Positions 2,029-41,687 of a stretch of DNA of 43,896 bases are shown one piece after another (positions within the stretch are counted from its first letter, which is position 1; each line of letters opens with the position of its first letter). The DNA comes from Deltaproteobacteria bacterium (GTDB taxonomy: Bacteria > Desulfobacterota > Desulfobacteria > Desulfobacterales > UBA11574). Below the pieces are notes generated by a model, which made no database searches, was not told where the DNA came from, and saw only the letters and a list, made by a program, of their open reading frames with translations. Location: positions 1 through 43,896 of the forward strand of contig JAFDHQ010000001.1 of NCBI GenBank assembly GCA_019308685.1, given 5' to 3'. Both the position numbers and the translations under genes were made by a program.

Positions 2029-2565
2029 ACTTATTGATTTTTTAAGCTATCCTGTCAAGATAGATTTTATCAACAACTTATTTCCCCACTTCCCCAAAAC
2101 CAGTTGGGCCAACAATCCAATTTTCCAATGGATGGACACGAGTTCGAGGTGCCCGCTATCAGCTGCAACTCGGCATATACCGGGTCGACTGAGTTGCTGG
2201 ACGAACTTGCATCTGCAACAAGATCAAGCGAGCCTGGTTGTGATAAATACCGTACTATCTTTATGAAATTTATGAGAAAAAAACATCTTGAATGTCTGTA
2301 ATTAATCAGGCATACTATAAGCGATCTCAAAATAATCTTTTGGCCCAACCTCGGCGTTGGGCCCTCGTTTTAAATCCTCGACATACTTAAGTATGCCTGC
2401 GGGTTAAAACTCGGTCCCGCCTTGATTTTGAACCAAAATCTTTATTTTGAGATCGCTTATAACACAAATTTTTGCTTGGTTTGAAGAAAAGCCATATCCA
2501 TTAAGCGATTCAACAAAAAAATCCCCGACTTTTGAAATAAATATACTTTAAAAGGAACCCATAAT
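2029..2565. other. Divergent intergenic region, mostly repeat
   Basis: This 537-bp gap separates dtd (minus) from the hybrid kinase (plus). Bases 2317-2460 are palindromic element copy A. Bases 2100-2310 are more GC-rich than the rest and are open in two overlapping frames (65 and 92 aa) with no recognisable protein, which could be a gene remnant. The segment before 2566 is AT-rich and ends in the ribosome binding site AAAGGA of the kinase. I could not fix a promoter. Confidence 0.4.
2317..2460 (-). repeat. Palindromic element, copy A
   Basis: This 144-bp fold-back has a perfect 19-bp inverted pair at its ends (2317-2335 with 2442-2460). Inside it is a GC-rich hairpin, GGCCCAAC...GTTGGGCC (2342-2363), and a central long hairpin. 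Read on the minus strand, the apex is CGCAGGCATAC, loop TTAA, then GTATGTCGAGG. The same apex occurs in three other copies at 5091-5236, 9887-10035 and 40908-41063. Confidence 0.8.
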
Positions 2566-5001: not shown

Positions 5002-5090
5002 TTGTTATTTGAGGGAAAAAAAGAGTTTTTTGTATTGTTGACAAGAACCGGAGACAAAAGTATTCTGTAAAAGAATTTGATGTGATGTGT

Positions 5091-5236
5091 AGAAGTGGTT
5101 TCAAAACCTCCCCTCAGGCCCAATTTCTGTGTTGGACCGAGGGATTCAATACTCGAAATATTAAATATATTCCTGCGTTTGAATCCTTCGGTCCGCCTTG
5201 ACTTTGAACCTGATTGAAGGTTTTGAAAACACTTCT
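5091..5236 (-). repeat. Palindromic element, copy B
   Basis: This 146-bp fold-back has terminal arms at 5091-5109 and 5218-5236 that match at 18 of 19 positions. On the minus strand the apex starts CGCAGGAATAT and ends ATATTTCGAG, flanked by GGATTCAA and TTGAATCC, which pair. The arms are unrelated in sequence to those of copies A, C and D. An apparent ATG-like start for yqgE at 5198 lies inside this element and is not used here. Confidence 0.75.
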
Positions 5237-5263
5237 AAGATAAAAAAATCCACGGAGCAACAT

Positions 5264-5833: not shown

Positions 5834-6029
5834 AGAATTTATTTTTGCTTAATTTCAATGAGCTTAAACCTAAGCCTTACAAACTAAAACTTGAGCTGCT
5901 GAGGCACAATCTTCCTTTCGGTCTTCTGTCTATTGCAACAAACTTATTTCTTATGAGCCCTTTGCAAAACGCCCCCTTTTGCCCAATCCCGGCGCCTGCC
6001 CCATGGAAGGGGTAAGGCTCAAATTTTAA

Positions 6030-9886: not shown

Positions 9887-10035
9887 CTCGGTGTTCATCC
9901 ATTAACGGTAGATTTTGGCTTCCGGCAAGGCCCGAGCGAGTTTTTAACCGCAGGCATAGCGTGCTATGTCGAGGATTGAAAACGAGTGATAACGCCGCCG
10001 GGGGTCAAAAGATGCCGTTAATGGATGAACACGAG
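9887..10035 (+). repeat. Palindromic element, copy C
   Basis: This 149-bp fold-back has terminal arms at 9887-9908 and 10015-10035 that pair over 21 bp with one bulged G. On the plus strand the apex is CGCAGGCATAG, loop CGTG, then CTATGTCGAGG, flanked by a paired TTTTTAAC/TTGAAAA stem. Its right end touches the stop codon (10036-10038) of the convergent YcaO gene. Its left end lies just past the truncated Mut7-C gene. Confidence 0.8.
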
Positions 10036-40747: not shown

Positions 40748-40909
40748 TTGAAGATCACAGTGGATTATCGTGAGAAGACATCCGGGCTTATAGATTTATT
40801 CAAAAAGGCAATCCTTACAATACAGATCTCAAATTTGACAGAAGGGCAATTAAAGGAGCCCTCATATCTGCTGAAACCATATGGTATATTCCTGTTCTTT
40901 TTAAGCTAA
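40748..40909 (+). pseudogene. Truncated ERCC4-type nuclease domain
   Basis: From TTG 40748 (GGAG nine bases before) the frame reads LKITVDYREKTSGLIDLFKK followed by AILTIQISNLTEGQ. This resembles the start of ERCC4-fold nuclease domains (..DYRE...GL..LL). Homology stops after about 35 residues; the catalytic ERK/D segment is absent. The frame ends at 40909, where palindromic element D starts. I read it as the cut 5' end of a nuclease gene. The family call is from the short match only. Confidence 0.45.
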
Positions 40910-41063
40910 GGGCTCGCGCAAAAATAACTTCACATTTTTACATCTCAGCTTCAGCCCATCTTTGGCTGATACCTCACTCGCAAAATCCTCGAAATAGCTC
41001 GCTATTCCTGTGGTTTTGCAATCTAAGCGCCAATTCTGCGAAGTTATTTTTGCGCGAACCCTT
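40908..41063 (-). repeat. Palindromic element, copy D
   Basis: This 156-bp fold-back has arms at 40908-40931 and 41040-41063 that pair over 24 bp with one mismatch. Inner hairpin AGCCAAAG/CTTTGGCT-like arms (40951-40971 region) are also present. On the minus strand the apex is CACAGGAATAG, loop CGAG, then CTATTTCGAGG, flanked by a paired GCAAAA/TTTTGC. Its left end sits at the stop of the ERCC4 fragment. Confidence 0.8.
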
Positions 41064-41687
41064 ACAGAAGAGGATTTTCAATTTAAGCGGCATCGCCGCG
41101 TTTTATAAAATCGTGAAACGATTTTATTTTTATTTTTTGCTTGACATACCTCTCCAAAACATGTTCAACTGCTGAACACCCAAAAAACAAATGCCCATCT
41201 ATTAAAAAAAATATAGAAAAAATATAAATTACAATATGTTATTGATTAAAACTTAATGTAATTTACTAAGCAGAGCCTTGTGTTCGGACAAGACACCCAC
41301 CACAATCCTACATTACAATATCTGTAACCGTTCACGGGTTCAGGGTTCAAAGGTTCAGGGTTAAGGACAAAGAAGGCATTGAAGATCGGAAGTCCTCGTT
41401 AAAAATGTTCATTTTCCCAAGTAATTGCCAATTTGGCTTCAAATTTTGGATTAGGCCTGACGAAACTGACACTTTTCTCTTAAATACTCATCCCAAATGC
41501 AGCCCGGGGACGAGAATGGAACCTTGAACCCCTGAACCTTTGAACCCGTGAACGCCTATGTATCTTCTGCCCATTGTCTTCCTCAACACCTCGGCTTCAT
41601 TTTTCATAATGCGGAAACTGCAAATCCCCCAACCTTTAAACCGTGAACTTTGAACCGTGAACGGTTACCAAACATCGAAAAAAAATT
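41064..41687. other. Intergenic region with nested inverted repeats
   Basis: This 624-bp gap precedes the polysaccharide locus. Apart from the nested repeat at 41325-41667, it is AT-rich in the first 250 bp and shows no gene. A promoter for the regulator at 41688 could lie near 41580-41680 but I could not define it. Confidence 0.45.
41325..41667. repeat. Nested GGTTCA inverted repeat
   Basis: GTTCACGGGTTCAGGGTTCA at 41330-41349 faces its near reverse complement at 41520-41554. An outer pair, TAACCGTTCACGG with CCGTGAACGGTTA, closes at 41667. The unit word GGGTTCA/TGAACCC is repeated within each arm. Confidence 0.6.

Follow-up and report, generated by a model that had tools for sequence, protein, structure and literature searches.

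Introduction

MITEs are usually taken to have arisen by deletion from a single parent IS, with nothing valuable left between their ends. Bacterial MITEs are shorter than 500 bp, carry no gene, and show terminal inverted repeats of 15–25 bp, direct duplications, a high copy number, and a hairpin (PMC10969869). The elements analysed here share these structural features of MITEs (PMC10969869), namely the size, the absence of a gene, fixed terminal inverted repeats, duplications (in families C, D, E and J), the copy number, and the hairpin. Known MITE families, however, have one end set and one parent, whereas the present elements combine one covarying, strand-specific core with many end sets and differing duplication lengths.

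IStrons, which join a group I intron to an IS (PMC4227781), are the nearest analogue and the best precedent, the likeness being that one structured RNA class is joined to several transposon families. Unlike IStrons, the elements here have no Rfam intron match, and their hairpin of ~145–180 bp has no transposase gene and no room for one. Rickettsia palindromic elements (PMC10969869) are alike by description, being ~150-bp palindromes of several families that occur in frame inside protein genes; defined duplications and a common core are demonstrated here only for the present elements, most copies of which are intergenic. The hairpin MITEs of Candidatus Thiomargarita nelsonii (PMC4853749) are also of high copy number without a known parent IS, and one of them has a group I intron; their terminal TATAG repeats set them apart, by description, from the present elements. 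REPs are 20–40 bp long, bear GTAG or CGTC tags, and are linked to RAYT tyrosine transposases (PMC3733652). REP and REPIN sequences (PMC3733652) resemble the present elements as dispersed palindromes with conserved hairpin features, and identity with them was rejected, as the conserved apex and the ends studied here bear no GTAG or CGTC tag and the elements have long arms and duplications. Integron attC sites have conserved R and L boxes at their ends, a variable tip, and an integrase; on inspection, the layout here is the reverse, with a conserved tip and variable ends.

The window, a 43,896-nt stretch of a Desulfobacterales draft genome, contains four such elements, for which the initial annotation knew no described family. 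For Rfam 15 and the open-access papers searched that statement holds; as to the kind of element it does not, the elements being MITE-like. Specifically, the window's only Rfam 15 matches at the gathering score are tRNA and RNase P, and a permissive Rfam search of copy A gives one chance-level match. The open-access papers searched contain no description of the core, and an earlier one may exist in ISfinder or in the subscription literature. We consider it likely that the elements are non-autonomous MITE-like transposons of several families with one common structured core.

Results

Four palindromic elements in the window

The four long palindromes are present where the initial annotation had placed them. 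With borders that exclude the flanking duplications, they span positions 2318–2459 (element A), 5092–5235 (B), 9891–10032 (C) and 40910–41061 (D). Element A (family A, 142 bp) has its core and apex on the minus strand. Its left terminal inverted repeat (2318–2336, plus strand) pairs with 2441–2459, its apex (2377–2399, minus strand) reads CAGGCATA-CTTAAG-TATGTCGAG, and TA flanks it at 2316–2317 and 2460–2461. Element B (family B, 144 bp, minus strand) is flanked by TA at 5090–5091 and 5236–5237 and has the apex CAGGAATA-TATTTAA-TATTTCGAG at 5152–5175 on the minus strand. Element C (family C, 142 bp) lies on the plus strand, with the apex CAGGCATA-GCGTGC-TATGTCGAG at 9951–9973 on that strand; in its flanks, TGCTCG and GAGTTA, a 6-bp duplication is no longer discernible. 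Element D (152 bp, minus strand) is an internally shortened member of family D, whose length is ~178 bp, one side being short by ~26 nt. Its apex (40988–41010, minus strand) reads CAGGAATA-GCGAGC-TATTTCGAG, and the duplication in its flanks, TAA (40907–40909) and TTA (41062–41064), is no longer intact.

The apex pattern CAGGMATA-N6/7-TATKTCGAG occurs exactly four times in the window and not once in 100 dinucleotide shuffles, so the common apex is above chance. As first described, the third apex pair is C:G in A and C and A:T in B and D, and the inner stems differ in sequence among the four copies with their pairing kept. Elsewhere in the window, positions 41330–41547 hold a further inverted repeat pair, GGGTTCAAAGGTTCAGGG / CCCTGAACCTTTGAACCC, with GGTTCA-type units unrelated to the core, and a solitary E-type end-like sequence, GAGCCCTTTGCAAAACG, lies at 5955–5969.

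Families with fixed terminal inverted repeats

Searches with each of the four copies revealed many relatives of each in their own genome, a 3.26-Mb draft in 283 contigs. The elements of the four families are 142–183 bp long and contain no transposase gene. Their terminal arms, initially described as copy-specific, are constant inside each of these multi-copy families: among complete copies in the own genome, the outer 19 nt are 93–97% identical to the family consensus (A, n=13; B, n=9; C, n=19; D, n=15). The left-arm consensus sequences are GAAGCCATCTCAAAAATAG (A), GAAGTGGTTTCAAAACCTT (B), GTGTCCATCCAGAAATGGT (C) and GGGTTCGCGCAAAAATAAC (D). The arms had also been said to have no sequence in common between copies, and this fails for A and B, whose ends are similar to each other (TAGAAGY..TCAAAA). 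C ends alone occur 284 times, versus 10 for the reversed pattern, and D ends occur 44 times. Each of the four window elements represents a different MITE-like family, and in every family the terminal inverted repeats are fixed.

A common core behind many end types

A part of ~100 nt, larger than the apex alone, is common to A, B and C. In D the apex is present and similarity to the model as a whole is weaker, and its kinship outside the apex is the least certain. Alignment A1 comprises 25 dereplicated copies with A, A2, B, E and F ends and with C ends on an A-type core. In A1, little or no variation is seen in TCAAGG, ACC-RCAGG, TATKTCGAGGAYT and AAC-C--GA, in contrast to the stems and ends; the conserved unpaired motifs of the core run TCAAGGC ... 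ACCRCAGGMATA-loop-TATKTCGAGGAYT ... AACRCMGA.

The covariance model R1 was built from A1 and thus mainly from A, B, E and F ends. R1 matches all four window copies, with 128 bits for A on the minus strand (33 bits on the plus strand), 122 bits for B, 73.5 bits for C (E 1e-14), and 33.6 bits for D, where only the apex part is matched. Elsewhere it also matches J, C, D, G, H and I elements (E ~1e-5 to 1e-23, rough values). Both the own-genome search and the model search in the phylum therefore found copies beyond the four. C ends accompany either their own core or one of A type (L035, L079, L104), and B/C chimeras occur (L072, L078); therefore, ends and core recombine. Several copies (L203, L204, L206 and L208; L196 and L198, genome G009) have extra nested hairpin sequences within the inner stem.

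Covariation and strand preference of the core

RNAalifold on A1 gives 43 pairs, 29 of which have compensatory double changes. The pair cells of A1 are paired in 92.2% of cases, versus 75.4% with partners shuffled, and the covariation score is 0.459, versus 0.158 with partners shuffled and at most 0.162 with partners slid, these controls leaving the relatedness among copies in place. For 41 further copies from seven genomes, which were retrieved by means of the model and also aligned to it and are to that extent biased towards it, the score is 0.312, versus 0.141 shuffled and at most 0.075 slid. Across end types, two internal loops persist, RCA/GA and TCAAGGC / AACRCMGA, as do the wobble pairs at columns 23:112, 24:111 and 59:75.

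The two strands are not equivalent. With the structure predicted on the apex strand, wobbles outnumber A.C mismatches there by 94:16 and 162:12. When both strands are folded, with RNA and DNA parameters alike, the apex strand is the more stable in 33 of 35 A, 10 of 10 B, 32 of 32 C and 47 of 47 D copies, and the averages show the same for each of the 11 end types. This bias is what selection for a single-stranded fold with fixed polarity would give, unlike a symmetric palindrome or arm-to-arm correction. Selection for structure, one of the two explanations offered initially, is thus supported by the covariation, by the conservation of internal loops and wobble pairs, and by the one-strand preference.

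We also considered that these are ordinary MITEs, the core being neutral filler from one ancestral MITE and the complementarity arising by arm-to-arm (quasi-palindrome) correction. In favour of this, every element is a palindrome, copies in genome G041 vary at the hairpin tip, and some B copies (L065, L066) have matched double arm changes that template switching could produce. Such correction, however, would eliminate the three wobble pairs and the conserved internal loops, all of them retained across end types, and the strand bias is consistent, which leaves a neutral core rather unlikely.

Target-site duplications and transposition systems

The flanks of four families contain direct duplications of a length specific to the end type, with counts that exceed every shuffle. 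Specifically, an identical 3-bp TWA stands on both sides of 38 of 48 D copies (300 shuffles: mean 21.8, maximum 32). C copies, whose duplication has the form TANNTA, have an identical 6 bp in 9 of 32 cases (expected 1.3, maximum 5) and, in a larger set, in 21 of 54 (expected 1.2, maximum 5). For J (GGGT.CCTTGAAAAAT), an identical 4 bp (TNNA) is found in 13 of 19 copies (expected 1.8, maximum 6), and for E (GAGACCTTTGCAAAA), an identical 5 bp in 7 of 20 (expected 0.4, maximum 3), with 72% of the positions of E duplications matching versus 28% expected. The ends thus sort by duplication length into GTGYCCATCCGGAAAT (6 bp), GAGACCTTTGCAAAA (5 bp), GGGTACCTTGAAAAATT (4 bp) and GGGYTCGCGCAAAAATAAC (3 bp). 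In the window, and nearly always elsewhere, A and B terminate at TA, which is compatible with a 2-bp duplication, inseparable from the repeat itself.

For DDE transposases, the length of the duplication is set by the enzyme. Since the lengths are fixed per end type, several transposition systems are presumably involved. A single transposase with relaxed end recognition might instead serve all families, the duplication length varying with the end type. The A, B and A2 ends are indeed similar, a single genome (G009) has all three on the one core, and a parental IS was not found; nevertheless, lengths of 3, 4, 5 and 6 bp are each tied to one end type and the enzyme sets the length, so that we regard a single enzyme as improbable.

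No autonomous element with matching ends was found in the assemblies searched, and draft MAGs lose IS copies. Because the window's genome is a draft in 283 contigs, missing repeats such as IS elements are weak evidence. The only IS630-type gene found (L193) was rejected as a partner because its ends differ, and a search for a PF01609 gene as partner found none. In G041, 21 C ends with other interiors proved to be divergent MITEs, fused ends or solo ends, and what lies within the one pair of C ends spaced by ~1 kb (L258) is a lipoprotein-like ORF rather than a transposase. In L189, no transposase adjoins the lone C end.

Distribution and genomic context

The apex pattern is present in at least 111 stretches of GTDB contigs and, among the matches listed, most are in Desulfobacterales or Deltaproteobacteria MAGs. 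Within the order, 29 of 96 genomes carry it, each with 1 to 162 matches, versus one for the reversed control, and R1 matches 32 of 118 sampled genomes of the phylum Desulfobacterota. A complete genome (L085) has two matches only. This patchy, high-copy spread is the pattern of a mobile element. The apex pattern is absent from the viral contigs searched, and the cores tried have no match in viral contigs, phages or plasmids; a search with D matched a single D-type element, carried by a Desulfosarcina plasmid. Core-like elements also occur in MAG contigs labelled Ruminococcaceae and Sandaracinaceae (L156:4377-4476; L120, L149, L152, L158, L180), reflecting either transfer beyond the phylum or mis-binned contigs.

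The elements show no orientation bias relative to genes (17 sense versus 23 antisense in tandem contexts) and no replication bias by GC skew (mean −0.006, t −1.25). Most copies are intergenic. A family A element plus TA measures 144 bp, or 48 codons, and each strand of many copies has one open frame. Three genes of the own genome are read through family A elements in frame, always in the same frame and for family A only: inside an M1-peptidase-like protein (L011:1476-1617), as the linker joining the TIGR04282 domain to the TIGR04283 domain in one protein (L014:795-936), and inside an ORF without a family match (L015:1473-1614). These insertions hint that the elements are tolerated in transcripts.

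RNA-like covariation and strand bias would also be expected if the core were an independent functional RNA, a host sRNA or mRNA element, captured by MITEs and serving the host. The patchy distribution, from 0 to over 100 copies per genome, and the lack of gene-orientation bias speak against a host function, and a solitary core without transposon ends was not seen, truncated copies excepted; we therefore think a host RNA very unlikely. Finally, it had been suggested that local sequence is newly copied in inverted form at every insertion, and the four outer arms do appear unrelated in the window alone, but this is hardly credible given that each arm type recurs at many sites with unrelated flanks, 93–97% constant, as a fixed family terminal repeat with direct duplications of family-specific length outside it.

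Discussion

Our analysis thus favours non-autonomous MITE-like transposons that have one structured core in common. Judging from the ends and duplications, DDE-type transposases provided in trans would carry out the cutting and insertion of the ends. The covariation and strand bias suggest that the core travels as a passenger and that its folded single strand, of fixed polarity, aids spread or tolerance. That strand could be RNA, made by read-through or by the core's own transcription, or ssDNA at replication. Recombination of neighbouring or nested copies may have moved the core between end sets, so that it would now be on at least four, probably five, transposition systems, the ends, and hence the transposases, having apparently changed several times around it.

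A conserved, covarying, strand-specific core amid changing ends and duplication lengths points to selection on the middle of these elements. More tentatively, and with some doubt, we propose that the core is a selfish hairpin module of ~100 nt, RNA or ssDNA, that is not the product of any single transposon, was taken up by at least five transposition systems, and spread in the phylum because its fold is of general benefit to small transposons. If so, the benefit might be, for example, tolerance in transcripts or access to transposition. A concrete question becomes testable, namely how a passenger RNA or ssDNA fold benefits a transposon. Furthermore, the covariance model can annotate hundreds of unexplained Desulfobacterota repeats, some of them in frame inside proteins.

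Several minor observations concern ends and tips. C-like or D ends surround other palindromic cores at L049:2873-3090, L010:638-820 and L081:4004-4160, with differing apices such as GGCGTAC..GTACGCC or GTAGGAATA..TATTTCTAC. In G041, solo C-type ends with an apparently intact 6-bp duplication (TAGTTC, TAGCCG and TAGCTT) occur at L256, L258 and L268, and fused C ends at L263 and L271 are end-to-end scars without a core; both are probably deletions through TAG microhomology. G041 copies (L214–L273) that are otherwise near-identical differ at 0.35 differences per site in the loop tip, versus 0.10 in the arms. In the window's own genome, the apex-loop centre is not clearly variable; in G041, the variable tip hints that the DNA hairpin extrudes.
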